64,000 nucleotides of DNA, from positions 3,893,168-3,957,167 of the forward strand of contig NZ_CP009528.1 in NCBI RefSeq assembly GCF_000970025.1, written 5' to 3'. The notes under the pieces were generated by a model. It did no database searches. It saw nothing but the letters and a program-made list of their open reading frames with translations, and was not told where the DNA came from. Below, in pieces: positions 49,565-63,095 of this stretch (position 1 is its first letter; each line of letters starts with the position of its first letter). The translations under genes were made by a program, and so were the position numbers. Source of the DNA: Methanosarcina barkeri MS. GTDB taxonomy: Archaea; Halobacteriota; Methanosarcinia; Methanosarcinales; Methanosarcinaceae.

Positions 49565-50333
49565 TTATTGTCCTGAAATATCTTTCAGACCATAGATCAT
49601 ATAATATTCATATTCGTAGGCAATTTTATATCTGGGCGGCATGTGTTTTTTCTGGATTCGCATAAGATCGTCCAGTCCTATTGATCGCACGTCTTTAAAC
49701 CTGGCTTTTTCCATATATTCTCGAGCCTTACCCAGGGGCACACCTTTCGCGTTGGGCAGTATAGCATTCACTTCCGCAGTATAACTGTCTTTGGATATAT
49801 CGTTCCTTTCGACTATATGTATCATAGTCTCACCTATATTTCTTTTCAGGTGTGTTTCTAGACGGCTGTCATCCCATACGCCGTCTATTATGACTACTTT
49901 TCCCCCTGGCTTCAGTACATTTCGCCAGTCATTAAGGGCTTTTTCAGGATTCGGTAGCGTCCAGAGCACATGGCGGAGTCAAGACGGCATCAAACTTTCC
50001 TTAATCAAAAGGGGGATTCTCTGCGTCGCCGATCCTGAATTTAATACTGCTAGGAGACTTAGACTTCGCCACCGAAAGCATTTTTTCGGACAGGTCGATA
50101 CCTGTCACCTTATACCCCATATCCGCCAGCATCTTGCTCATTTCGCCCGTACCGCAGCCGACATCAAGAACGCTTAGCCTTTCCCCAGGGATTACCTGCC
50201 TGAAAAGAGCCTTCCAGGCTGCTTCTTCTTCCTCACTCTTTACCCCATGGCCGTGATATGCATCATAGCGCTGCGATGAATAGTCCCATCGTTTCGTGAT
50301 CTCTTCCTTGATCTTGTTTTCATTAATTGACAT
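49565..50333 (-). pseudogene. Class I SAM methyltransferase, inactivated
   Basis: A broken paralogue of the neighbouring methyltransferase. The first part (ATG 50331-50333) includes KRWDYSSQRYDAYHGHG and motif I VLDVGCGTGEMSKMLADMGYKVTGIDLSEKML, then stops at an in-frame TAA after NPPFD (50001-50003). About 30 bases on, one extra C (actccgcc for actcgcc) shifts the frame. After this, RHVLWTLPNPEKALNDWRNVLKPGG and the C-terminus continue to 49565. Two separate lesions show that it is dead, though decay is recent. It is the last gene of the minus-strand ABC operon, 16 bases after its intact sister. Confidence 0.88.
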
Positions 50334-50348
50334 ACAATACCTCGAAGC

Positions 50349-51128
50349 TTACCTATTTTTAACCGCGATACCATGAACCATAAAAATAGGGTGATCATTG
50401 GCATATTTTAAATACCAGGGTAATTGCTTTCGCTGTATATCTCGAATTCTTTTCAAGTCAGTAACAGCGATATCTGCTAAGCCAGCCTTAGAAACATATT
50501 CCACGACCTGTTCTTTATCGACCCCATGAGGGTTGGGAAGGCTAACATTGATGTCCTTCTTATAATCGTAAGTAAAGGGGTTTTTTCCATACTTTATAAA
50601 TCGGTAAATGTGGAAATTCACCGAGGATATAAGAGGAAGTAGGCCTTTTGTAATCCACTTGCCGTCAATAATGACGACACTGCCGCCTGGCTTCACAACT
50701 CTGATCCATTCTTTTACCGCCTTTTCCGGGTGAGACATAGTCCAGAGTACATACCGAGCAGTAACGCAATCAAAAGTTTCGTCCTCGAAGTTAAGGTTCT
50801 CAACGTTCATTTCCATGAACCGAATATTCGCTCCCTTTTCCCGGGCTTTCTTTCGGGCTACATCCATCATTCCTTCACTAAAGTCTACTGCAGTCACGCT
50901 ATGGCCCAGCTCTGTCAGATACATAGCAATTATTCCGGTACCACTGCCAACGTCCAGGATATTTTTAGGGCTCGAACCGATCGTTTTTGATAATAGCTCT
51001 TTCCAAATCTGACTTTCCTCGATCCCTCCGTTCCCCGGCGCCGTATCGTAGAACTTGCTCCCATAATCCCAGTATTTCTTTACTCCTTCCTTAGTCCTGT
51101 CGAGTTCCAGCTTTCCAGATTCCGTCAT
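50349..51128 (-). CDS. Class I SAM-dependent methyltransferase linked to an iron/cobalamin-type ABC transporter
   Basis: A 259-residue cytosolic methyltransferase. SAM-binding motif I is ILDVGSGTGIIAMYLTELGHSVTAVDFSEGMM, then FMEMNVENLNFEDETFDCVTARYVLWTMSHPEKA and VVKPGGSVVIIDGKW. The R-x3-WT-x3-PEKA segment is shared with the other three methyltransferases of this island and defines their subfamily. ATG 51126-51128 lies two bases after the ABC ATPase stop (tgaacATG), so it is clearly part of that operon. The acceptor is unknown; methylation of an imported or exported metal ligand is a guess from context. Confidence 0.85.
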   Translation of the reverse strand: MTESGKLELDRTKEGVKKYWDYGSKFYDTAPGNGGIEESQIWKELLSKTIGSSPKNILDVGSGTGIIAMYLTELGHSVTAVDFSEGMMDVARKKAREKGANIRFMEMNVENLNFEDETFDCVTARYVLWTMSHPEKAVKEWIRVVKPGGSVVIIDGKWITKGLLPLISSVNFHIYRFIKYGKNPFTYDYKKDINVSLPNPHGVDKEQVVEYVSKAGLADIAVTDLKRIRDIQRKQLPWYLKYANDHPIFMVHGIAVKNR

Positions 51129-51130
51129 GT

Positions 51131-51931
51131 TCACCCCATTATGACCTTTTTGATCCCACATTTTCGCATCGAATTAACTGGTATGATTTGTGGTATACCT
51201 TCACCGTCAAGTGTTACCCTTGCGTTGACCCCATAGACTTTTCGAATCATCGCTTCGGTTATCACGGAAGCCGGACTTCCAGCAGCCACGATTTTACCGC
51301 CATTCATCAATACGACATTGCCCGCATACCGAGACGCCAGGTTGAGGTCGTGTAATGCCACTATCGTCGTCATTCCGTTCTCTTCCGTGATGTTCTGGAT
51401 CACGTCAAAAAGCTCAAGCTGCTTCTGAAGGTCCAGCGAGTTCGTAGGCTCGTCCATGAGAAGCACTTTGGGTTTTCGGATGATCGATTGGGCGATAGAC
51501 ACCATTTGCTTCTGCCCACCGCTGAGCTCGTTCATTGGCCGCATCGCCAGGTCTCCAATCCCGAGCTTTTCAAGCGTATCCATCGATGCAGACAGATCCT
51601 CATCCTTGATCCTCCAGCCAAGCGAATTTATCTTTCCCAACAATGTTGCCTCTAGCACCGTCATAACCGTACTTGTAGAGGATTCCTGAGGAAGGTAGCT
51701 AATAGCTTTTATGACCTCGTCTTTTCGATATGCCTTCAGGTCTTTTCCATTGAAGATTATTGACCCTTCGGCCTTGAGTATCCCGCATATGCATTTTAGC
51801 AAGGTGGATTTTCCGACCGCATTCGGGCCTATGATCGCAGTGACCATCGGCTCAGCAACCATATTTACGCTTTTTAACACCGGATTGGAATTATATCCGA
51901 ACCTGAGATTTTGGATTTCCAGCTTCACCAA
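51131..51931 (-). CDS. FecE/BtuD-type ABC transporter ATPase
   Basis: The energy-coupling subunit of an iron-chelate or cobalamin importer, 266 residues. Walker A is GPNAVGKST (the usual GPNGSGKST has Gly-Ser where this has Ala-Val), Q-loop YLPQESST, signature LSGGQKQMVSIAQ, Walker B VLLMDEPTN and switch ALHDLN. The C-terminus VYGVNARVTLDGEGIPQIIP is typical of the FecE family. It overlaps the permease gene by 7 bases and is followed after two bases by a methyltransferase. Whether it transports iron, cobalamin or another chelate is not decidable. Confidence 0.9.
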   Translation of the reverse strand: MVKLEIQNLRFGYNSNPVLKSVNMVAEPMVTAIIGPNAVGKSTLLKCICGILKAEGSIIFNGKDLKAYRKDEVIKAISYLPQESSTSTVMTVLEATLLGKINSLGWRIKDEDLSASMDTLEKLGIGDLAMRPMNELSGGQKQMVSIAQSIIRKPKVLLMDEPTNSLDLQKQLELFDVIQNITEENGMTTIVALHDLNLASRYAGNVVLMNGGKIVAAGSPASVITEAMIRKVYGVNARVTLDGEGIPQIIPVNSMRKCGIKKVIMG

Positions 51932-52968
51932 TATCCCCTCTTTTTAGATAGAAGGAGCCAGACAAAAAACGGTATGCCAATCAGTGACGTGAGTATCCCT
52001 ATTGGAAATACGATTCCCGGAACAACGGCCTTGCTGAGAACCGAAGCGGTGGAGAGTATAAACGCCCCGGACAACGCTGAAAAAGGTAAAAAGTATCGAT
52101 GGTCCTCCCCCACGAGCATCCGTGCTATATGCGGTGCCACGAGGCCAATGAACCCTATGGTGCCTACGAATGCAACTGCCGTGGACGTAAGAATCGAAAC
52201 CAGGATCAATCCCTTTAGTCTCATCTTTTCAACGTTCACTCCAAGACTTTTTGCCTTATCATCACCCAGCCTGAGAGCGGTGAGTTTCCAGACGTCCATG
52301 GCTAGCAGTGGTATGACCATCAAAACAATTCCCACCGTGATACCCAGAGTGGTCCAGGTTGTCTTGGTCAGGCTGCCGAAAAGCCAGAAAACTATGGCCT
52401 GGACCTGCTCCGGGTTTGCTGTATATTCAAGGAGCGCCAGCAAAGAGTTAAACAAGAACAGAACGGCAATGCCGGTAAGCACGATGGTTTCGGAGGTGGC
52501 TCGCTTGAAACTGGCAATGCCATATATTGCCATGCAGCTGATTAACGAGAACACGAATGCATTAACCGGCACGAATAAAGTATCAGTGAACGGCAGCACT
52601 CTAACGCCAAACACGATAGCCAGCGCGGCGCCGAAACCGGCGGCTGCGGATATTCCAAGTGTATAAGGGCTAGCCAGGGGGTTATCGAGGATAGTTTGCA
52701 TGTTCGCGCCGGCGAGACCCAAAGTTATTCCGGTCACGATTGCCATGAGGGCGACTGGCAGGCGGAAGGTCCAAACAATTACCTGGACAGATCGCTCGCT
52801 AGATGCAGGAAAGAATATCGTTGAAATGACCTCGCTCGCCGATAAAGACGCCGGTCCTGTCATAATGTCAAGGATAAAAGTGAGGAAGATTACTACAGAA
52901 ATAGAGAGGAGATAAAGATATTTCCTCCCTGTCATTTTCTTGTATGCTTCTTTTGCTTTAACGTTCAT
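51925..52968 (-). CDS. FecCD/BtuC-type ABC transporter permease
   Basis: A 347-residue membrane protein of the FecCD family with about nine to ten helices. Family landmarks are WTFRLPVALMAIVTGITLGLAGANMQTILDNPLASPYTLGISAAAGFGAAL, SLGVNVEKMRLKGL (coupling-helix area), and FIGLVAPHIARMLVGEDHRYFLPFSALSGA. Being single, it would act as a homodimer. It follows the binding-protein gene by 30 bases and overlaps the ATPase gene, so all three are one transcript. Confidence 0.92.
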   Translation of the reverse strand: MNVKAKEAYKKMTGRKYLYLLSISVVIFLTFILDIMTGPASLSASEVISTIFFPASSERSVQVIVWTFRLPVALMAIVTGITLGLAGANMQTILDNPLASPYTLGISAAAGFGAALAIVFGVRVLPFTDTLFVPVNAFVFSLISCMAIYGIASFKRATSETIVLTGIAVLFLFNSLLALLEYTANPEQVQAIVFWLFGSLTKTTWTTLGITVGIVLMVIPLLAMDVWKLTALRLGDDKAKSLGVNVEKMRLKGLILVSILTSTAVAFVGTIGFIGLVAPHIARMLVGEDHRYFLPFSALSGAFILSTASVLSKAVVPGIVFPIGILTSLIGIPFFVWLLLSKKRGYW

Positions 52969-52998
52969 CCCAAGTGCTACTCCTCAAGTCTGCATTTG

Positions 52999-54153
52999 TT
53001 AATAATATCTGTACACCAGCGTACCGCTATAATCTATGGGCATGAACTTTCTGTGATATTCCTTGAGCGTATCAACAGGATCCACGTCCTTGAACTCTTC
53101 TGGATAGAACCATTTCGCGAATGTTTCCAGTGCAACGAAGTTAAATACGTCCGAGCAATAGCCGTGATATATGCCATAGACCTTCCGATTCTCTACTGCA
53201 TTGATCGTATCCCACCCTGGACGGTTGACGAATGGCGTCATCGTGCTCTTCGTTACGTTCGATGTAAAAGTATAGCCCATCTTGAGCGATCCGGGAGTAG
53301 ACCAGTTCCTTCCAGTTAATATGATGATGTCCGGACTCTGATTGACCAGATATTCGGCACTGAGAGCCTTACTTTTGTTGAGTAAAACCGGTTCTGCAAT
53401 GTTGTCTCCACCCGCTTTCTTAACGATATCTCCCCATGCTACGTCCCCATAAGATATGCCGTAAGTATCCGGGCCGTTATATGCACATTCGACGTAAACG
53501 GTGGGTTTCTTTCCCTGTATTTTCTCCAGGCGGGAATATACGCTGTTGACCTTTTCCTCATAATAATCAACTATATCCTGAGCCCTCTGTTCCTTACCCG
53601 TGATCTTCCCAAGTAACTGAATACTCTTCGTTGAATTTTCCAAGGGTTCCATGTAGAAGTCTAAAAATACTACTGGAATACCGGCCTGATCCATCCTGGC
53701 CAGCGCCTCTTTTGTTGCTTCTCCGTTCCACATGAATTCCCAGTTGGGCATGATGACGACGTCAGGATTCAATGCTATCACTTTTTCAGCATTAAAAGTA
53801 TTATCGTCCAGGGAGCCTACATCTGGTATTTCGGCCATTGTCGGGAATTTTTCCACGTATTTCTCATACATATCGCCGGAATTCTCTCTGAGATAGTTAT
53901 CCCAACCAACGATTTTGCTATCAAACCCCTCTCCATAGACCGATGAAAATTCGGCCGTGCACGTCGAGTCCATCAGTACAAAGCGCTCCACCGGATATTT
54001 TAATGTCACTGATCGTCCCTCCATATCGGTTACAGTAATCGTCTTCACTTGGTCATCTGTGCTGCCGTTCGTGATACAGCCCGAAACTAAAAAAGTCAAA
54101 AAAACGATCAATATAATCGCAAGGATAGGGGGTGTTGTTAATTTATTGCGCAT
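52999..54153 (-). CDS. Lipoprotein substrate-binding protein (iron/cobalamin type)
   Basis: A 384-residue lipoprotein of the type 3 (helical backbone) binding-protein family, which serves iron chelates, haem or cobalamin. The signal and lipobox are LAIILIVFLTFLVSGC (Cys at about residue 26). The mature part has ITVTDMEGRSVTLKYPVERFVLMDS, VIALNPDVVIMPN, GITGKEQRAQDIVDYYEEKV-like linker helix, and YLVNQSPDIIILTGRNWS. It is first in the operon; divergent promoters should lie at 54154-55571. The ligand is not predictable from sequence. Confidence 0.9.
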   Translation of the reverse strand: MRNKLTTPPILAIILIVFLTFLVSGCITNGSTDDQVKTITVTDMEGRSVTLKYPVERFVLMDSTCTAEFSSVYGEGFDSKIVGWDNYLRENSGDMYEKYVEKFPTMAEIPDVGSLDDNTFNAEKVIALNPDVVIMPNWEFMWNGEATKEALARMDQAGIPVVFLDFYMEPLENSTKSIQLLGKITGKEQRAQDIVDYYEEKVNSVYSRLEKIQGKKPTVYVECAYNGPDTYGISYGDVAWGDIVKKAGGDNIAEPVLLNKSKALSAEYLVNQSPDIIILTGRNWSTPGSLKMGYTFTSNVTKSTMTPFVNRPGWDTINAVENRKVYGIYHGYCSDVFNFVALETFAKWFYPEEFKDVDPVDTLKEYHRKFMPIDYSGTLVYRYY

Positions 54154-54556
54154 GTTGACCTCTAACTACTCAAATTATACCGGAACTGGACCACTTTTAT
54201 ATCATCCAAAAACGAGGCTCTGCCATCAGGATCCATCATCCAGTTTCATAGTCATCGATAATTTAGTAATGATATTATTCAACAGGTTTTTAATGTATTA
54301 ATAATTTATTAAATAGTATTATTTTATACACTGTGATAAATATTTTGTAACAATGTGTATTGAAATTTTTAAGCTTCACATTTTTCTATAATTTTAAGAA
54401 TACAGCAGGTATGAAATGCCAGATGATCAGATGCTAATTATTAACCTTAAAAAATCAAATCGCAACATAGGCATCATGTACTTGGGCAAGATTTTGTAAG
54501 TGGAGATGTGAAAGAAGTCCCACTGCAGTCCAGAGAAATCCATGTTTATCTTAAAG

Positions 54557-54830
54557 TCAGGTTACCTGTGCAGCCATTAACTGGCCGAAAGAGCCTTTAG
54601 CAGTGACAAGTTTGTCGAATGTGCCACTCTTCTCAACTTTCCCATTTGCTAGCATTATCACCCGGTCTGCCGACCGGATCGTCGAAAACCTATGTGCTAC
54701 GATCAGAGTTGTGCGTCCTGTCGATATCTCCTTGACCGCTCTCACAATATATGCGCCACCGTAGAGACATGAAGATGCTGCTAGCAGTTTTGGCTGCGAT
54801 ACGATCTTTTTCTCGTCTCATAGCCCATTG
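54557..54830 (-). pseudogene. C-terminal fragment of an ABC exporter ATPase
   Basis: The minus strand encodes VKEISTGRTTLIVAHRFSTIRSADRVIMLANGKVEKSGTFDKLVT, the H-loop and C-terminus of a multidrug/lipid-type exporter, ending at 54557. Upstream the frame breaks: KDRIAAKTASSIFMS, a degraded remnant of the signature/Walker B area, is in another frame. No membrane domain is left. Confidence 0.75.
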
Positions 54831-54900
54831 CAGGACGAGGAGAAGCGCCACCGTGACAAAGTACAATTCGGACTTACGACGTGGGGACCCAGCGAACACT

Positions 54901-55571
54901 CTAGTGAGTATGATCAATGAGCAGTCCCTGGACTATATAAATTAGGACTTACGAACTGAGGAACAGAATCAATCACTTCAGAGACTGTGGATTAAAGTTG
55001 TGTTTTAGACAATTTTGAGAGCCCACTCTTTGACTCAATCCGGGTATATTCTTTAACGATATCGTTTTTTTGATATATGATCTCTCTGTTAACAACTGCA
55101 ATTTGTTATCAGTTGAGAGGGTTTTAGCTGGTTCCTGGGTTATTGCTTACTTGAGAGAAATCAATTTCAACTAATTTTTTAATATATTCGTTATAAAAAA
55201 TACATAAATAACTTATTAATTAACATTAAGAACAATATTTATAACATATTAATTTCCATTAAATGGAAATAGTAATTAAAAGTAATAATAAAAACATAAT
55301 TTTTAAGAAAGGTAACATTTGTTAGCCAAATCCTAAGATATATATCATGTTGAATTATATTAAAGAGAATTAATAATAAAAATTAATAAAAGTGTGATAT
55401 TTTTAATAAATGTGCCAGTCAAGTGGTTAAAACACTAGTAATTGGTTGAAAAATTGTAATAGGTTATGTGAAAAAATACAGAATTTTCTAAGACATTGTC
55501 TGAAAATAGCAATTATATTAAGATTATCATGAATTTAGCCAAAAAATATTGTACATTAGAGGAACAGAAAA
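54901..55571. promoter_or_regulatory. Intergenic region before the plus-strand ABC operon
   Basis: It contains the left copy (54943-55015) of a direct repeat also found at 62753-62826. The stretch 55170-55540 is extremely AT-rich and probably holds the operon promoter. The site gagg (55559-55562) precedes ATG 55572. No gene is seen. Confidence 0.45.
54943..55015 (+). repeat. Left copy of a roughly 73-bp direct repeat
   Basis: It starts taggactta, shares ggattaaagt and gtgtttta with 62753-62826, and is similar along its whole length. The two copies lie on either side of the plus-strand ABC/methyltransferase operon. Confidence 0.75.
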
Positions 55572-56321
55572 ATGAATTTAAACACCCGCATTAAAAATTA
55601 TTGGGAAGGCGAGGCGCAGGGTTACAGTGAAGCAATTGAGGATGAACTAAACGGCTTTGAGAGAAAAGCATGGTCTGATTTGATACTGGAATATGCACCC
55701 TCCAAAGATTGTCTTGATATACTGGATATTGGCACTGGACCGGGATTCTTTCCAATCGTATTATCACAGGGCGGACATAATGTTACTGGTATAGACTTAA
55801 CCGAAAACATGATCGAATTTGCACGTTTTAACCTTGGACGTGAAGGTGCTAGTGCAAAGCTGATGACTATGGATTGTCAGAGTTTGAAATTCCCAGATAA
55901 TAGTTTTGATCTGTTAATTTGCCGTAATCTCACATGGACACTTGATGACCCTGCCAAAGCATATAAAGAATGGCATCGCGTCCTGAGATCAGGCGGAAGG
56001 ATTCTTGTTTTTGATGCTTGCTGGTATCTGCACCTGTTTGATGAGAATATGAAAATAGTCTATGAAAAAAAGGAGAAAGAGATCCTTATGAAATACGGGC
56101 ACCCAATGCACCAGCACAAAGATCAAGCTGAGGGTGATGCACTCAGCCGGAAGCTGTTTATGAGTGACAAAGTCAGACCGCAGTGGGATTTGGATATGAT
56201 GCTTAAACTCGGATTTTCAAAGGTATTTGCAGATACTTCAGTGGGTGAACGGATACTCAATGAACAGCAGCAGGATAGAAACAGTATGCATCCTCCGTTT
56301 TTGGTAGGAGGAGAAAAATAA
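55572..56321 (+). CDS. Class I SAM-dependent methyltransferase (first gene of plus-strand ABC operon)
   Basis: A 249-residue soluble methyltransferase. It begins NTRIKNYWEGEAQGYSEAIEDELNGFERKAW; motif I is ILDIGTGPGFFPIVLSQGGHNVTGIDLTENMI, then FPDNSFDLLICRNLTWTLDDPAKAYKEWHRVLRSGGRILVFDACW. The R-x3-WTLDDPAKA segment matches the other methyltransferases of the island. The C-terminus contains clustered His residues (KYGHPMHQHKD), which could bind metal. ATG 55572 is preceded by gagg. The NikB-like permease follows after about 280 bases. Acceptor unknown. Confidence 0.85.
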   Translation: MNLNTRIKNYWEGEAQGYSEAIEDELNGFERKAWSDLILEYAPSKDCLDILDIGTGPGFFPIVLSQGGHNVTGIDLTENMIEFARFNLGREGASAKLMTMDCQSLKFPDNSFDLLICRNLTWTLDDPAKAYKEWHRVLRSGGRILVFDACWYLHLFDENMKIVYEKKEKEILMKYGHPMHQHKDQAEGDALSRKLFMSDKVRPQWDLDMMLKLGFSKVFADTSVGERILNEQQQDRNSMHPPFLVGGEK

Positions 56322-56602
56322 AAGGGACACACTATTTTGCGTCTTATGGCAAAATATTTCATTATACAGTTTCTGCGTGGATTCAAAAAAGATGAAGCAG
56401 GTAAATAACAATTGGTCTCTTATATACATCGTGCGATTTTTAAAAATGTCGGCTTTGTATTAGTCGGTACCGTGACTAATTAATAAAACAGCCCGGCTTT
56501 TACAGAGCTCTTATTGGGAAACAGTTCTTGTGGGAAAACAGTTATGGAAATTATATACGGTTGATGCGGCGAGTAACATCACAGGTCACGGGAGGTGAAA
56601 TA

Positions 56603-57532
56603 GTGCTTAAAAGCATAGGAGAACGGTTATTCACACTGATTCCTGTACTGCTAGCCATTTCATTAATAACCTTCATCCTTGGCAGCATGTCTTCCGGTGA
56701 CACTGCACGTACGCTAGCTGAAAAACAATATGACAGACCAACATATGAGCAGATTGAGAAAATAAGAACCGAGATGGGATTTGACAGACCGGTGCTGGTC
56801 CAGTACGTCAGTTGGCTTAAAAATGCGGTGAGAGGTGATTTGGGCTATTCTTATTCAAATGACAAGCCGGTGGTTGACGAGATTGTTCAATATTTTCCAA
56901 AAACATTACAGTTGGCACTTCTCGCACTATTGTTTTTAATTATAATTTCATTTACTCTTGGAATTTTATCGGCGGTGTTTTCCGACTCGTGGATCGACAA
57001 GATTTCCAGAATATACTGTTTCTGGAGTGTATCAATGCCCGAATTCTGGTTTGGACTCATTCTGCTGTATATTTTCGGCGCTCGTCTTGGACTAATATCA
57101 GTGCTTGGTGGAAGTTCAACGAAATTTCCAATAATACCTGCTCTTACAATGTCTATATGCAGTGGAGGGATTTATGTCCGACTAATTCGTACAAATATGG
57201 AGGAAGTACTGAACAAGGGATATATCCGTGCAGCCAGAGCAAAAGGAGTGAGTGAATATAAAATAATAACAAAACATGCTCTAAAAAACGCAACGCTTCC
57301 TGTACTCAACAAGCTTGGGATCGGATTCGGCTCTTTGTTAGCTGGATCTGCCATTATTGAATCAATATTTTCATGGAACGGGCTTGGAAATCTGGCACTC
57401 GAATCAGTTAAGCTGAAAGACTACCCAGTAGTCCAGGGATATGTGCTGTTTATGGCTTTTTTGATGGTGTTAATTAACCTGACTGTAGATATTATATGTG
57501 GCATCATTGATCCGCGCCTTAAAAATGAATGA
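56603..57532 (+). CDS. Nickel/peptide-type ABC permease 1 (NikB/DppB family)
   Basis: A 309-residue membrane permease of the oligopeptide/nickel importer family. The N-terminal helix LFTLIPVLLAISLITFILG and the family motif PTYEQIEKIRTEMGFDRPVLVQYVSWLKNAVRGDLGYSY are typical. The EAA-like coupling segment is YIRAARAKGVSEYKIITKHALKNATLPVL. I use GTG 56603 because ggaggtga is at 56591-56598; a longer frame from 56528 lacks a ribosome site. It pairs with the next permease to form the channel. Confidence 0.9.
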   Translation: MLKSIGERLFTLIPVLLAISLITFILGSMSSGDTARTLAEKQYDRPTYEQIEKIRTEMGFDRPVLVQYVSWLKNAVRGDLGYSYSNDKPVVDEIVQYFPKTLQLALLALLFLIIISFTLGILSAVFSDSWIDKISRIYCFWSVSMPEFWFGLILLYIFGARLGLISVLGGSSTKFPIIPALTMSICSGGIYVRLIRTNMEEVLNKGYIRAARAKGVSEYKIITKHALKNATLPVLNKLGIGFGSLLAGSAIIESIFSWNGLGNLALESVKLKDYPVVQGYVLFMAFLMVLINLTVDIICGIIDPRLKNE

Positions 57533-57541
57533 GAGGGACAT

Positions 57542-58414
57542 ATGATGCAGGTCAAAACTCAAGCAATAAAGAGATCGAGCTCATGGTTTAGTTCATACGA
57601 TGGCATTATAAATCGTATACTTACACAAAAAGCAGCAGTCTTCGGTTTTGTAATAGTAGCCTTGATTATCTTCATTGCCATAGCTGCATCTGTAATAGCG
57701 CCAAATGACCCACTTAAGGTAAATATGTCAATGCGTTTAAAAGGCCCAAGCTCGTTATATTGGCTTGGCACCGATAATCTGGGGCGATGCATTGCATCCC
57801 GTCTGATTTGGGGAGCACGGATGTCACTAATATACAGCATGTGCGTGCTGGGCCTTATGATGGTAATTAGTATTCCGATAGGGCTCCTGTCCGGATATGC
57901 AGGCGGTCGCATAGACACATTTATTATGCGGATTATTGACATATTTTTATCACTCCCGACTTTTCTGATGGCATTAGCCATCGCCGGTATGTTAGAACCC
58001 AGTGCGAGAAATATGATTATTGCCATCGCCAGCGTGTGGTGGGCACCTTATGCAAGAATAATACGTGGTATGGCAATGCAGATAAAGCAACAGGACTTTA
58101 TTCTTGCAGCAAAAGCAGCCGCCTGTACTCATAGTCAGATTATTTTTCGGCATATACTTCGAAATATTGCTCCAACAATTATTGTAATGGCCACACTTGA
58201 AATTGGTTCTATTATACTGGCCATCGCATCATTTTCTTTTATCGGGTTGGGTGCGCAGCCGCCTACGCCCGAGTGGGGCATTATGCTCAGCGACAGCAAA
58301 GAATTTATGCAGACACAGCCGCAGCTGATGATTTATCCGGGAATTGCAATTATGATTACAGTCATGGCGTTTAATCTTCTGGGGGAAGGACTGAAAAATG
58401 CAATACAAAACTGA
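57542..58414 (+). CDS. Nickel/peptide-type ABC permease 2 (NikC/DppC family)
   Basis: A 290-residue membrane permease. A leading helix FGFVIVALIIFIAIAASVIAPNDP is followed by the family hallmark LYWLGTDNLGRCIASRLIWGARMSL and GLLSGYAGGRIDTFIMRIIDIFLSLPTFLMALAIAG. The coupling segment is DFILAAKAAACTHSQIIFRHILRNIAPTIIV, and FSFIGLGAQPPTPEWGIML lies near the end. It begins 9 bases after the first permease and overlaps the next gene by 17 bases. Confidence 0.92.
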   Translation: MMQVKTQAIKRSSSWFSSYDGIINRILTQKAAVFGFVIVALIIFIAIAASVIAPNDPLKVNMSMRLKGPSSLYWLGTDNLGRCIASRLIWGARMSLIYSMCVLGLMMVISIPIGLLSGYAGGRIDTFIMRIIDIFLSLPTFLMALAIAGMLEPSARNMIIAIASVWWAPYARIIRGMAMQIKQQDFILAAKAAACTHSQIIFRHILRNIAPTIIVMATLEIGSIILAIASFSFIGLGAQPPTPEWGIMLSDSKEFMQTQPQLMIYPGIAIMITVMAFNLLGEGLKNAIQN

Positions 58415-59210
58415 CCAGGAAATTCAGAGTGAAAACGCTACATTAGATATCCGGGGCCTTTCTCTGGACTACATTATGCAGGATCAAAACATCCACGCCG
58501 TGGTAGACTTGAACCTTGTTGCAAGAATGGGAAAAATCACCGCACTTGTTGGAGAAAGCGGCAGTGGAAAATCTACTGTCGCACTTGCAGTAATGGGTAT
58601 TCAGGGTAAAAATGCTGTAGTCTCAAGTGGTGAGATTTACCTGGGAGGGACAGATATACTCTCTATGCCTAAAAAAGATATGCGGTCTTACATATCGAAC
58701 CATGCCAGCATTATCTTCCAGGATCCAATTGATTCTCTGAATCCGTTATTAACTGTTGGAGAGCAGTTGGTAGAGGCAATCCTGATACATGAAAAAATAA
58801 CAAAAAATCAAGCTCGTACCATTGCGCTCAATCAACTTCTGGCGGTCAGCCTGCCACAGCCAGAGAAATTGATGAAAAAGTACCCGTTTATGTTGAGCGG
58901 AGGAATGTGTCAGCGTGTAATGATTGCCATCGCCAGCGTTTTCCACCCACCGCTTCTCATTGCAGATGAGCCAACAACAGCTCTTGATGTAACGATTCAG
59001 GCTCAAATCCTGCATCAATTGGATTCGATGAGGAAAAGAGACGGAACTGCAATTCTGCTTATTACACACGATTTGGGAGTCGTCGCAGAAATAGCAGACG
59101 ACGTGTGTATCATGAAGGACGGACATATTGTGGAAAGCGGCACGGTAGACGACATATTCTGTAATCCTCAACATACGTATACACGCCAATTACTAGCAGC
59201 GGCGCTCTAA
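58398..59210 (+). CDS. Nickel/peptide-type ABC ATPase 1 (NikD/DppD family)
   Basis: A 270-residue ATPase: Walker [11 protein letters not shown]-loop [23 protein letters not shown], signature [12 protein letters not shown], Walker [15 protein letters not shown] and switch [15 protein letters not shown]. It ends soon after the ATPase core ([16 protein letters not shown]) and lacks the Cys-rich extension found in many DppD proteins and in its partner. It overlaps the preceding permease by 17 bases. Confidence 0.92.
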
Positions 59211-59221
59211 GAGGTTTGGCC

Positions 59222-60190
59222 ATGGAAGTGTTGGCGGAAACCCAAAACATACGAAAATCCTACGAAAAACAAAATTTGTTTACAAAAAAGAGAGAGCAGG
59301 TATCTGCCGTAAACGGCGTGTCTCTCAGAATTCGGAAGGGATGTTCAGTAGGACTTATTGGAGAGAGCGGAAGCGGAAAAAGCACGCTTGGCAGAATGAT
59401 GGCCGGACTGGAAACGCCGACCGAAGGACAGGCACTGTTCCGAGGGCGATCAATATCGAATATTTCCCTTCGAAAAATGCGCCCGTTACGACGTAATATC
59501 CAGATGATCTTTCAAAATAGCAGCAGCATTTTTGATACGTCCTATACTATAGGAGAAAGTATTGCTGAGGTTATTGAAAACAGCGAGAAAGTATCAAAAA
59601 AAGAATGCTCAGAAAAAATAGAGACAATATTGGAACAAGTGGAGCTAGATGCTTTATACGCTCAGCGGTATCCAAAAGAATTGAGCGGAGGGCAACGCCA
59701 GCGAGCCAATATTGCACGTGCGCTTGTTCTTCACCCGGAGTTTGTTGTTTGCGACGAGCCTGTTTCCAGCCTTGATTATTCATTGCGCAAACAAATTCTG
59801 ACTTTGCTTAATGACTTACGAAATAAATTTGGTTTAACTTATTTATTTATCACCCACGACCTCAACTGCGTGCCTTATGTCTGCGATATGATGGCCATTA
59901 TGTATGCTGGTAAGATAGTGGAGCAAATCGATTTAAAGAAAAACACGATGCAGAACGCGCTCCATCCGTACACCAACTTACTTCTTTCGTGTATACCAGC
60001 AAAGATGCCTGCAGAACGAAAAAAACGAATGATGGAGAGTATAATTGATACAACAGTTATACCTGATTCAAAACACTGTTGTCGGTTTTTTCCACGCTGT
60101 CCTTTCTGTACGGAACGTTGCATAAATGAAGAGCCATTGCTAAAGGAGGTCACAAGCGGTCATTTGATAGCATGTCACATTATACCATGA
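59222..60190 (+). CDS. Nickel/peptide-type ABC ATPase 2 (NikE/DppF family)
   Basis: A 322-residue ATPase: Walker [11 protein letters not shown]-loop MIFQNSSSIFDTSYTIGESIAEV, signature LSGGQRQRANIARALV, Walker B VVCDEPVSSLDYS and switch FITHDLNCVPYVCDMMAIMYAGKIVEQ. The C-terminal oligopeptide extension has a Cys cluster, CCRFFPRCPFCTERC, possibly a metal or Fe-S site as in related transporters. ATG 59222 (after gagg) is preferred to TTG 59216. Confidence 0.92.
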   Translation: MEVLAETQNIRKSYEKQNLFTKKREQVSAVNGVSLRIRKGCSVGLIGESGSGKSTLGRMMAGLETPTEGQALFRGRSISNISLRKMRPLRRNIQMIFQNSSSIFDTSYTIGESIAEVIENSEKVSKKECSEKIETILEQVELDALYAQRYPKELSGGQRQRANIARALVLHPEFVVCDEPVSSLDYSLRKQILTLLNDLRNKFGLTYLFITHDLNCVPYVCDMMAIMYAGKIVEQIDLKKNTMQNALHPYTNLLLSCIPAKMPAERKKRMMESIIDTTVIPDSKHCCRFFPRCPFCTERCINEEPLLKEVTSGHLIACHIIP

Positions 60191-60243
60191 CACATTGTAG
60201 CATGCTACATTATATGAGCCATTAAAGAAAGGGAGAATGAAAA

Positions 60244-61860
60244 ATGAAGAAAAAATATATCTGGGTAATTATCGCGTCGGTACTATCATTGGTGCTGTTG
60301 CTGAGTGGATGCATCTCGAATCAAGCGTCAAACAATACGCAAAACGGAATTGCTGGTTCTTCAGATGCCAACACCACAGCCGTTAGTAATCAGGCAGATT
60401 CCATTACAATTATGGTATCCGATGAGCTGAATCCAGAAGATGCAAGCCCAATAAACTCCAGCACGGAAATGTGCCTTTATGAAATGGTGTACGAACCGCT
60501 GGTTAAATACGGAATAGACGGCGTGATTGAGCCGGCACTTGCTAAAAGCTGGGAAATCAGCGATGATGGAACACAGTATACTTTTTACTTGCGTAAAGAT
60601 GTCAAATTTTCAGATGGTACTAGCTTTAACGCAGACAGCGTGGTAAGCAGTGCGAAGCACTGGGACCCAACGAGTTTTACCACACCGCTTACAAATGTGG
60701 AGAAATTAGACGACTACACAGTCAGGCTGACATTTAAGGAAAAATGCTACCCAGTATTAATCGAACTAACCTATCCCCGACCTTTCCGCATCGCATCTGA
60801 AAATTCATTTGATGCAAACGGCAACTTTGTAAAAATGATCGGCACAGGTGAGTGGATGGTGGAGAGTTATGTTCCCGAGAAAGAGGTGGTTATGGTACCC
60901 AACCCGTATTATTACGGAACAAAACCGAATATTAAAAAGATAACCATCAGAAAAGTTACTGATGGCGAATCAAGAATTATGGCGCTTCAGAGTGGAGAAG
61001 CTGATCTTTCTCTGGCCGATCTGCCTTCCGAAAGCAAATCGATCATTGAGTCATCAAAAAATCTTGCTGTTAAAAACACTGAAGGCACATTGGGATTTTT
61101 CCTCATGCTAAATCAAGAAAATACCGCACTGCAGGATGAAAATGTCCGTCTTGCGTTAAATTACGTAATAGACAAAGACAGCATCGTGGAAAATATATTT
61201 GGAGGCGACGCTATTGCCGCAAAGGGCATTTTACCTGATACGGTACCATACGTCACTGATGAAAACAGCAAGGGATACTCATATAACCCCGAAAAAGCAA
61301 AAGAACTGCTGGCCAAATCGGGATATACGGACAGTGATGGGGATGGAATCGTTGACAAGAACGGTGTGCCGCTGTCCCTTAAGCTTGTATTTCAGTCTGA
61401 GGAATATTCAAGCTGGAAATCTATGTGTGAATATCTCCAGGCGGCAGCCAAAGAGGTCGGAATTGACGTTCAGCTTAAGCAACTGGACACTTCGGCATAC
61501 TATGATGCAATCTGGAAAAACCGTGATTTTGACATGATTATTTACCGCACATATGAGGATTCGTGGAATCCACACGGATTTTTGCGCTCCATGTTTTATC
61601 AGCCCGAGGGCAGCAAGTCCGTGTGCTGGTATGACCCACAGTTAAATACGTATCTTGACGAGGTCATTAAAACACAGGACGAGGCAACGCGTCAGGCAAA
61701 GTATGACCAGATATTTAAGCTGATCAATGACAAGGCCCTTGTTGTTCCTCTGTGCTATCCCAATAAACAATATGTATATAATACCCACCTGCAAAACGTG
61801 ACAGTTGCACCGACGAGCTATGAAGGCATAGAGTGGCAGTTGATCACTATAGCAAAGTAA
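60244..61860 (+). CDS. Family 5 substrate-binding lipoprotein (nickel/peptide type)
   Basis: A 538-residue lipoprotein with signal WVIIASVLSLVLLLSGC (Cys near residue 22) and a Ser/Asn-rich linker. The family 5 fold is clear: MCLYEMVYEPLVKYGIDGVIEPALAKSWEISDDGTQYTFYLRKDVKFSDGTSFNADSV, LRLTFKEKCYPVLIELTYPRPFRI-like core, MALQSGEADLSLADLPS, and the long second lobe with VRLALNYVIDKDSIVENIFGG. NikA-like proteins bind nickel with a chelator, others bind peptides. The partner methyltransferases argue for a modified chelate, but only by inference. ATG 60244 is preceded by gggagaatgaaaa. Confidence 0.92.
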   Translation: MKKKYIWVIIASVLSLVLLLSGCISNQASNNTQNGIAGSSDANTTAVSNQADSITIMVSDELNPEDASPINSSTEMCLYEMVYEPLVKYGIDGVIEPALAKSWEISDDGTQYTFYLRKDVKFSDGTSFNADSVVSSAKHWDPTSFTTPLTNVEKLDDYTVRLTFKEKCYPVLIELTYPRPFRIASENSFDANGNFVKMIGTGEWMVESYVPEKEVVMVPNPYYYGTKPNIKKITIRKVTDGESRIMALQSGEADLSLADLPSESKSIIESSKNLAVKNTEGTLGFFLMLNQENTALQDENVRLALNYVIDKDSIVENIFGGDAIAAKGILPDTVPYVTDENSKGYSYNPEKAKELLAKSGYTDSDGDGIVDKNGVPLSLKLVFQSEEYSSWKSMCEYLQAAAKEVGIDVQLKQLDTSAYYDAIWKNRDFDMIIYRTYEDSWNPHGFLRSMFYQPEGSKSVCWYDPQLNTYLDEVIKTQDEATRQAKYDQIFKLINDKALVVPLCYPNKQYVYNTHLQNVTVAPTSYEGIEWQLITIAK

Positions 61861-61871
61861 GAGGTCAAAGC

Positions 61872-62630
61872 ATGTTGGGAACTGTATTTGAACAGATTGA
61901 AAAAGCCTGGTCTGCCGATTCCGGAGGCTATGACCAGGTGATTCAAAAACAGCTAAGTAATGAAGAAGACGTAAAACATTGGCAGGATGAACTTCGACTG
62001 GTACTTGGTGAGAAACCATTGCATGTACTTGATGTTGGGTGCGGGCCTGGATTTTTTACAATTATGCTTGCCAGGCTAAAACATAATGTGACATCTGTTG
62101 ATGGTGCTGAGGGAATGGTAGAGCATGCAAGAATCAATATCAAAAAGGAGGCGTTAAATGCAAAAATATATAAAAGCGACGCCGTGCTTTTGGATAACGA
62201 GAAGGAAGGAAGCCTTGATGCCATAGTATCACGTGATGTTGTTTGGACTCTCTATGACCCGGAGAAAGCTTTCATTAGATGGAAATATCTGCTGAAAGCG
62301 GATGGTAAAATCGTTATCTATGATGGTGATTACAGGCGAGATCAGTCTTCTTTGCGTTACCATGTATTGAAATTGACCTCAGACCTGATTAATCTCTTCA
62401 TGGAGGGAAAACATAGGAAAAAGAAACAGCACAATTCCCCAGGCAATGGATTTGAGCAACTGCCAATGATTCGGCATAAGCGACCGCAATATGATCGAGA
62501 ATTGTTGCTGAAGGCAGGTTTTTCAAAAGTTGAGGTAACAAAGGATTGTTTCCGCAACAGTCCATTACATCTTGAATTCTGGAGATATGGGTATCAGGGG
62601 AAAAAGTTCCGTATAATTGCTTACAAGTAA
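61872..62630 (+). CDS. Class I SAM-dependent methyltransferase (last gene of plus-strand ABC operon)
   Basis: A 252-residue soluble methyltransferase. It begins LGTVFEQIEKAWSADSGGYDQVIQKQL; motif I is VLDVGCGPGFFTIMLARLKHNVTSVDGAEGMV, then SLDAIVSRDVVWTLYDPEKAFIRWKYLLKADGKIVIYDGDYRRDQ. The subfamily segment R-x3-WTLYDPEKA is intact. ATG 61872 follows gaggt and lies just after the binding-protein stop; an upstream frame would overlap that gene by 28 bases. It has the same domain as gene 1 of the operon, so the transporter is bracketed by two related methyltransferases. Confidence 0.87.
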   Translation: MLGTVFEQIEKAWSADSGGYDQVIQKQLSNEEDVKHWQDELRLVLGEKPLHVLDVGCGPGFFTIMLARLKHNVTSVDGAEGMVEHARINIKKEALNAKIYKSDAVLLDNEKEGSLDAIVSRDVVWTLYDPEKAFIRWKYLLKADGKIVIYDGDYRRDQSSLRYHVLKLTSDLINLFMEGKHRKKKQHNSPGNGFEQLPMIRHKRPQYDRELLLKAGFSKVEVTKDCFRNSPLHLEFWRYGYQGKKFRIIAYK

Positions 62631-63095
62631 GTGAGATAATAACTGCGAGAGTACAGGCTCTAATTATGAGAATAAAGAAATAATTGTGAGAATACAGGCT
62701 CAAATCACATAACTTTAGATAAAACACTAAGTGAGATAAGCTTCATAATCCATAGGACTTATGCACTTGAGAAACAAAATCAAGTGCAGCAAAGATTATG
62801 GATTAAAGTCGTGTTTTATACAGTTAATGATCTGATGCTGTTGATTTTTCAGTTCGACTGCGTTAATCCGGTGATTTCACTATTTTTCTTTTCACCGGAT
62901 TTTACATTTAGATCTCCATCTTTAGTTTTTTTCATTAAATTTCGTTGACTCAGGAATTATTGCCCTTTGAGTGACCATTCTTTTTACAAATATCTAAAAA
63001 ACTCTCGTTTTTTATTATTATTTCAATCACAACAAAATGTGTTCTGAAGCAGATTCTAATTAAAGCAAAATTCGGACTGGAATGAAGACGATTTC
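62631..63095. other. Intergenic region with the right copy of the direct repeat
   Basis: No gene. Short repeated words (gtgagaatacaggctc-like, 62644-62703) and the direct repeat at 62753-62826 are present. Confidence 0.45.
62753..62826 (+). repeat. Right copy of a roughly 73-bp direct repeat
   Basis: It starts taggactta and contains tatggattaaag and gtgtttta. It matches 54943-55015 with scattered substitutions, in the same orientation. Confidence 0.75.

Follow-up and report, generated by a model that had tools for sequence, protein, structure and literature searches.

Metal importers and a proposed SAM-dependent metallophore system

In the cnt systems (staphylopine, pseudopaline, yersinopine) an S-adenosylmethionine (SAM)-dependent enzyme, a Nik-type importer and a major facilitator superfamily (MFS) transporter are encoded in one operon. 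A related layout is found in Methanosarcina barkeri MS, where a stretch of 64,000 nucleotides (the window, meaning the whole stretch of DNA that was analysed) carries two divergent ATP-binding cassette (ABC) importer operons containing class I SAM methyltransferases (MTs). One operon is of the FecBCD type, lies on the minus strand and holds MT_A and a broken MT_B, and the other is of the NikABCDE type, lies on the plus strand and holds MT_C and MT_D. Genomic context gives good support to an action of the MTs on the ligand that the metal-chelate importers carry. Both operons are read here as metal-chelate uptake modules whose MTs make or tailor a secreted metallophore as the leading mechanism, with a probability of roughly 0.5.

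The likeness to cnt lies in a SAM-dependent Rossmann-fold enzyme combined with a Nik-type importer, in the MFS gene of some relatives and in the nicotianamine synthase (NAS) relatives that adjoin some of the MTs. In contrast to the NAS-family enzyme CntL, the window enzymes belong to Methyltransf_11; NAS is encoded elsewhere in the genome, and the MT operons also exist in a FecBCD-type version. Neither a CntM opine dehydrogenase nor a CntK racemase was noticed among the open reading frames (ORFs) of the operons, in which no dedicated search for them was made. A second comparison is offered by NiuBDE of H. pylori, which is related to the FecBCD type. It is a non-Nik ABC importer for nickel, cobalt and bismuth, for which transport of nickel and cobalt has been shown, and the accessible part of its description does not mention an MT (PMC5140060). 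The NikABCDE importer is matched by the window in its subunit set and in its NikB and NikC family scores, and in Proteus an MT of this kind precedes a canonical nikA; the window NikA differs in that it misses the family cut-off as well as H416, R97 and W100. For the enterobacterial NikABCDE system the use of exogenous L-histidine is described, and a dedicated nickelophore is not known for it (PMC11091072). Archaeal MtNAS shows SAM-based chelator chemistry in a methanogen, and its family adjoins some of the MTs together with a Cbi transporter; it belongs, however, to another protein family, and NAS transfers aminobutyrate where an MT would be expected to transfer methyl.

The MT subfamily is a concrete candidate enzyme for making or modifying the ligand of a metal importer, and in a Proteus record it is encoded 21 bp before a canonical nikA. 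Its linkage to importers is broader than first noted and extends over methanogenic archaea and some bacteria. According to the part of PMC10617489 that is available, methanogens have a high nickel demand and often live in habitats where sulfide minerals sequester nickel. If the proposal is true, a secreted or recycled ligand would change how the metal supply of methanogens should be modelled. No paper treating the MT-importer linkage surfaced in the literature, where coverage of subscription journals was partial and absence from print is not claimed.

Importer operons of the window

The initial annotation described four MTs of one subfamily, one of them dead, inside Fec- and Nik-type operons, and every part of this description is confirmed. 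The genes, in window coordinates, are the following.

49565 to 50333, minus strand: MT_B, decayed class I MT of the same subfamily, with a stop plus a frameshift
50349 to 51161, minus strand: MT_A, intact class I SAM MT (Methyltransf_11, 4e-28; 67% identity to an L098 MT)
51131 to 51931, minus strand: ABC ATPase of FecBCD/BtuCDF type (71% identity to L098)
51925 to 52968, minus strand: FecCD-type permease (PF01032, 1e-88; 69% identity to L098)
52999 to 54153, minus strand: substrate-binding lipoprotein, Peripla_BP_2 (57-61% identity to two tandem copies in L098)
54563 to 54914, minus strand: remnants of both halves of an ABC exporter-fold pair (tblastn: 59% across 64 aa, 45% across 56 aa; the intact L098 pair adjoins MTs)
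55572 to 56321, plus strand: MT_C, intact class I SAM MT (clusters with the nik-operon MT of Proteus)
56528 to 57532, plus strand: NikB-type permease (NF045470 Opp2B, 359 bits, cut-off 350)
57542 to 58414, plus strand: NikC-type permease (TIGR02790, 393 bits, cut-off 358)
58398 to 59210, plus strand: NikD-type ATPase
59216 to 60190, plus strand: NikE-type ATPase (TIGR02769, 262 bits, below the cut-off of 333)
60244 to 61860, plus strand: NikA-like substrate-binding lipoprotein, SBP_bac_5 (TIGR02294, 348 bits, below the cut-off of 393)
61833 to 62630, plus strand: MT_D, intact divergent class I SAM MT (overlaps NikA by 28 bp)

L098 is an orthologous Fec operon comprising two substrate-binding proteins (SBPs), FecCD, the ATPase, MT_A, an intact relative of MT_B and an ABC exporter-fold pair (626 and 598 aa); among the fetched archaeal loci it is the only one in which such a pair was recognised beside an MT. 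In the window MT_B is reduced to two ORFs, split by an in-frame TAA and a frameshift, and the intact relative in the same operon slot of L098 is 63% and 56% identical to the two pieces. The making side of the window Fec module seems to have decayed (dead MT_B, exporter fragments) and the uptake side to be intact. MT_D has no close copy in the orthologous operon of locus L102.

Intergenic spacing is 15, -31, -7 and 30 bp in the Fec operon and 206, 9, -17, 5, 53 and -28 bp in the Nik operon. The overlaps and short gaps (-31 to 53 bp) agree with the operon structure first proposed, but the 206 bp between MT_C and NikB are looser than the 'few bases' claimed. Nickel-family cut-offs are passed by NikB (as Opp2B) and NikC and failed by NikA and NikE, and NikB also misses that of TIGR02789 (303 of 447 bits). 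In the Fec set the FecCD permease and Peripla_BP_2 domains are both present, and no substrate-specific NCBIfam equivalog cut-off is reached among the families listed (for the ATPase, the best 25 of 190).

In local BLAST alignments, which span 32-220 residues, the window MTs share 31-41% identity with one another. The segment R-x3-WT-x3-P-x-KA, put forward as common to all four, is strictly present in MT_A, MT_C and MT_D, but broken MT_B has lost the R in frame and across the subfamily the strict form occurs in only 29 of 132 members, the window counted. A looser motif, W[TN][LM]..P, is found in 119 of the 132 members versus none of 19 low-scoring MTs, and W31, G74, D93, M98, D131 and W140 are invariant across 136 MT sequences. 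Three more specific identities were tried for MT_A and rejected: UbiE/MenG (TIGR01934, 99 bits, cut-off 158), CpaM (NF043040, cut-off 180) and DVU_1556, whose cut-off is missed.

A 58-nt repeat flanks the Nik operon (54957-55014 and 62768-62825). A cassette bounded by a specific repeat was considered and rejected; a 91-base stretch containing the repeat matches 24 times in the genome, which therefore makes it a dispersed intergenic repeat.

Linkage of the MT subfamily to importers

The M. barkeri MS genome holds nine intact members of the subfamily (three in the window, one in locus L021, two in L022, one in L023 and two in L024) in addition to broken MT_B. Of the nine, eight are found no more than 5 kb from an SBP5 or FecCD gene (binomial P about 3e-11, the zone so defined making up 3.7% of the chromosome), compared with one of 13 other MT matches that served as the control within this genome. 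The gene order is MT-SBP-NikBCDE in L021 and MT-SBP-NikBCDE-MT in L022, and L024 has a divergent MT followed by SBP, SBP, MT and NikBCDE. The sole solitary member, in L023, has a counterpart in L088, where this MT and the MFS gene that L023 also has flank a NikDE-A-BC set; this set is missing from L023, and the outer flanks of the two loci are 94% identical. On these sequence grounds the solitary MT is a relic of an MT-Nik-MFS locus. Nine Nik-type loci with 11 SBP_bac_5 genes are present in the genome, and an MT adjoins in seven of them: in four (the window, L021, L022 and L024) it belongs to this subfamily and in three (L030, L031 and L032) to others, at 44-65 bits. L033 and L034 are Nik-type loci lacking an adjacent MT.

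A profile of nine MTs was searched against 295 Halobacteriota genomes and finds matches, generic MTs included, in 194 of them at E 1e-20. Ninety-four loci were fetched from high scorers among the matches listed, and the sample leans to high scorers accordingly. L174 and L175 have no ORF over threshold and were left out of the counts, leaving 92 loci. MT scores in these are bimodal, with 117 ORFs at or above 180 bits, one at 115-140 and 18 below 115, counting six control loci. Nik/SBP5 or FecCD/PBP2 genes lie within 5 kb of 104 of the 117 members (79 Nik only, 16 Fec only, 9 both), and 13 members have no Nik- or Fec-type gene within this distance. Same-strand adjacent neighbours (n=126, MT-MT pairs counted from both sides) are separated by a median gap of 5 bp, with overlaps in 44 cases. 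Of 123 members, 90 have an importer gene or another MT gene no more than 250 bp away on their own strand. No Nik permease, FecCD or binding-protein gene is seen among the drawn neighbours of the six separate control loci, two of which (L176, L181) have ABC ATPase matches.

Relatives of the subfamily were found by tblastn in 156 records of a plasmid collection, mostly rhizobial. Fourteen records were chosen for spread and examined, with ORFs called stop to stop in the G+C-rich bacterial loci; 13 could be judged, and L195 (Shinella) is cut by the record start. Fec-type genes stand beside the MT in 10 Alphaproteobacteria (FecCD in nine, a detected PBP2 in L191), the Proteus record (L184) has the order MT-NikABCDE, and the Halobaculum and Embleya records have neither Fec- nor Nik-type genes beside the MT. 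The genome-neighbourhood survey suggested earlier for this 'WT-PEKA' subfamily is thus strongly positive, with 104 of 117 archaeal members in high-scoring loci and 11 of 13 plasmid-collection records. Proteus NikA scores 626 bits against a cut-off of 393 and keeps R97, W100, R137 and H416. The Nik and Ynt systems of P. mirabilis supply nickel to urease according to the accessible part of a review (PMC11026637), and from the NikA match we infer that the operon of the Proteus record is this tested Nik system. In Paracoccus and Shinella a gene annotated as pseudoazurin, a copper protein, lies between the ATPase and the MT (L186:6560-6988, L187:6534-6983).

Exchange of importer types

A quick LG+G4 tree was built from 136 MTs; it carries long-branch warnings, MT_D among them, whose place is unsure. 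With 11 rows labelled 'Nik+Fec' and nine labelled 'none' left out, the 116 rows labelled Nik, Fec or NAS need 14 changes. Fec versus all others needs 11, at least eight of them by well-supported branches. The NAS-linked members fall in two or more MT clades, so that NAS linkage arose or was lost at least twice. The Proteus MT is the partner of MT_C in a group with support 98. The labels are still clustered, with 28 changes for all five versus 48.8 when shuffled. Because the importer type has changed repeatedly on the MT tree, the link to metal import outlasts importer exchange.

Nicotianamine synthase and exporter-like genes

NAS genes (PF03059) are found 21-685 bp from six of the 13 members that lack Nik- and Fec-type neighbours, in L109, L119, L121, L124, L128 and L139. 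CbiQ is present in five of these six loci, and a CbiP-like gene stands beside NAS-linked MTs. The same MT-NAS pairing is seen in L048 (Methanococcoides sp.) and L049 (Methanosarcina sp. 2.H.T.1A.6), possibly duplicates of sampled genomes. For these NAS neighbours a binomial probability of 3e-5 to 8e-5 was estimated; it depends on assumed rates and an assumed n and is not used as evidence. In M. barkeri MS a tandem NAS pair lies between a CbiO-like ATPase with CbiQ on one side and CbiM on the other, collinear with the L128 cluster. L128 has an MT at a site where the M. barkeri MS counterpart has none, and tblastn found no decayed MT in the latter cluster. The earlier statement that no chelator synthase is visible therefore holds for the interval but not for the genome, given the tandem pair in its CbiMQO cluster. 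A third NAS gene of this genome is broken (L202:9343-10162; G000:C2:2525342-2526161).

As exporter genes the window has ABC exporter-fold fragments only, and these lie between its two operons. Among relatives, eight loci (L088, L089, L090, L100, L104, L105, L113 and L155) have an MFS gene immediately after NikC in the same orientation; in three of them it is truncated where the contig or locus ends. L108, L166 and L169 have an MFS gene of a second type near the MT; the counts leave out weak MFS matches of 26 bits in L120 and 54 bits in L148. Four MFS proteins were scanned, and none reaches an NCBIfam cut-off.

Proposed function and alternatives

According to the proposed mechanism the Fec- and Nik-type importers would bring in a metal complexed by a small ligand, with nickel and cobalt as the likeliest metals, and the MTs would act on the ligand carried by the importer. 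The MT would use SAM to alkylate an amino-acid-like or nicotianamine-like precursor, so that a secreted metallophore is made or tailored. The MFS or ABC transporter, where present, would export it, and the importer would recover the metal-loaded form, a layout like that of cnt (staphylopine). A role in metal-ligand handling is well supported because of the neighbourhood linkage, the importer exchange and the NAS and cobalt/nickel energy-coupling factor (ECF) genes that join in some genomes; what we infer is that the MTs take the ligand as their substrate and transfer a methyl group to it, as well as which metal is carried and that the product is secreted. The initial annotation had proposed that the MTs modify the transported ligand or a metallophore. 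This is partly supported: its metal-ligand part stands on the linkage, the exchange and the NAS/ECF genes, and methylation of the imported species is a putative further step. The SBP pockets differ, and the idea of one ligand may not hold between operons.

The window NikA-like SBP has E. coli NikA as its closest solved structure (5e-69). Of H416, R97, W100 and R137 it keeps only R137, with M27 and Y382 also kept, and the SBPs of L021, L022 and L024 lack both R137 and H416; the roles of these residues are taken from the accessible text of PMC11091072. Because these pocket residues differ, the ligands are probably not Ni(His)2 and probably not the same from operon to operon. A bolder form of the proposal is tentative: the subfamily might be the missing maker of a dedicated nickel/cobalt metallophore, in which a single SAM-dependent enzyme alkylates an amino-acid-like precursor to a secreted methylated chelator in methanogens, Alphaproteobacteria and Proteus, including a canonical nikABCDE operon.

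Several observations weigh against the making or tailoring of a secreted metallophore. Exporter-fold ABC pairs can import siderophores too (YbtPQ, IrtAB), and the CbiMQO importers encoded beside NAS are regarded as carriers of free ions. NAS is present in 24 of 295 genomes, far fewer than the 194 with MT profile matches, and most MT loci have no NAS or exporter seen nearby. Pocket residues of the binding proteins differ among MT-linked operons. Low-scoring MTs within the same loci are linked in nine of 18 cases, several being second MTs of importer loci, and do not form a clean control; three Nik operons of M. barkeri MS itself (L030, L031, L032) hold MTs of other subfamilies. The linkage is therefore not special to this subfamily. 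Nearby Nik, Fec and NAS genes are all missing for seven of the 117 members (L094, L110, L126, L130, L135, L148 and L172, of which the Pfam scan covered L172). The closest solved structures to the MT model are varied small-molecule N-, S-, O- and C-MTs. Finally, the window and eight other loci of M. barkeri MS, L023 among them, have no Rfam match at gathering score, thus no cobalamin riboswitch, and riboswitch control was set aside.

The alternative that survives best, though rather improbable, is that the MT serves release, trapping or detoxification. It would methylate a foreign chelator after import, on a thiol, imidazole, amine or hydroxyl donor, and thereby either weaken its hold on the metal, which would be released, or trap or inactivate the chelator. 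Most loci would suit this, consisting of importer and MT only, with no synthase or exporter recognised in reach. Phosphoethanolamine N-MTs and the S-MTs TmtA and GtmA are among the structures that the MT model (mean pLDDT 79.8, with a poor region at 153-185; read for its fold only) resembles. TmtA and GtmA methylate metal-binding dithiols. They rank 12 and 27 among the structural neighbours, a fold-level likeness at 16-17% identity, and differ in that no importer linkage is known for them here. The NAS neighbours and the MFS gene after NikC are unexplained by release alone, although the MFS protein could export spent ligand.

It is unlikely that these are ordinary oligopeptide or nutrient importers with an unrelated MT, as OppA/DppA annotation and the accessible part of PMC10846266 would have it. 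In that text 'oligopeptide-binder' SBPs of M. barkeri MS, including the adjacent MSBRM_0900/0901, are reported at lower levels on Fe(II)/cysteine than on FeS2 or sulfide, fold changes exceed 130 within the regulated ABC transporter group, and a role in cell-cell recognition, biofilm or signalling is suggested (PMC10846266). By chromosomal order MSBRM_0900/0901 are probably the L024 SBPs. The lack of the NikA ligand residues R137 and H416 in the MT-linked SBP5 proteins of L021, L022 and L024 would also fit peptides. The window NikB and NikC pass nickel-family cut-offs, however, FecCD and NAS/Cbi genes share the same MT subfamily, and Proteus NikA is canonical. The SBP regulation may alternatively be read as a response to trace-metal scarcity in sulfide.

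More doubtful still is salvage or synthesis of tetrapyrroles or corrinoids, in which a corrinoid or another metal tetrapyrrole would enter through the importers and be altered by the MT. It draws on the BtuCDF-like components of the window, on the CbiP-like gene beside NAS-linked MTs and on the weak similarity of MT_A to CpaM. The haloarchaeal member in L172 (L172:4245-14080) lies in a corrin-ring biosynthesis cluster, among CbiC, CobN, a CbiA-like protein and two tetrapyrrole methylases; the estimate for this explanation was raised slightly because of that position, which is a cobalt context again. Yet MT_A remains far from the CpaM cut-off (79 of 180 bits), a cobalamin riboswitch at gathering score is missing from the loci scanned, and Nik-type importers are not known to carry corrinoids.

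Direct methylation of a metal or metalloid in the manner of ArsM, which distant similarity to ArsM models and the neighbouring metal importers might suggest, is highly improbable and was set aside, as ArsM has conserved cysteines and the MTs have none, the only Cys column above 30% reaching 35% of 136 sequences.

Other importer loci of M. barkeri MS

Further importer loci of the genome have features of their own. A Fec-type operon near 4.00 Mb (L036:6967-12242; G000:C2) encodes an MT of another subfamily and a radical SAM protein between the binding protein and the permease. At the Nik-type locus near 1.44 Mb (L032:8537-16541; G000:C2) one MT is accompanied by another protein, which carries a Methyltransf_2 domain, and by a 575-aa product that is probably a fusion of two ATPases. 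At G000:C2:1958893-1959672 a FecCD gene lies in three pieces with an internal stop and has probably decayed. Three tandem Peripla_BP_2 genes are found in a Fec-type operon near 1.09 Mb (L038:3169-9551; G000:C2), and these may include the adjacent iron(III)-dicitrate binders reported as regulated in the accessible part of PMC10846266.

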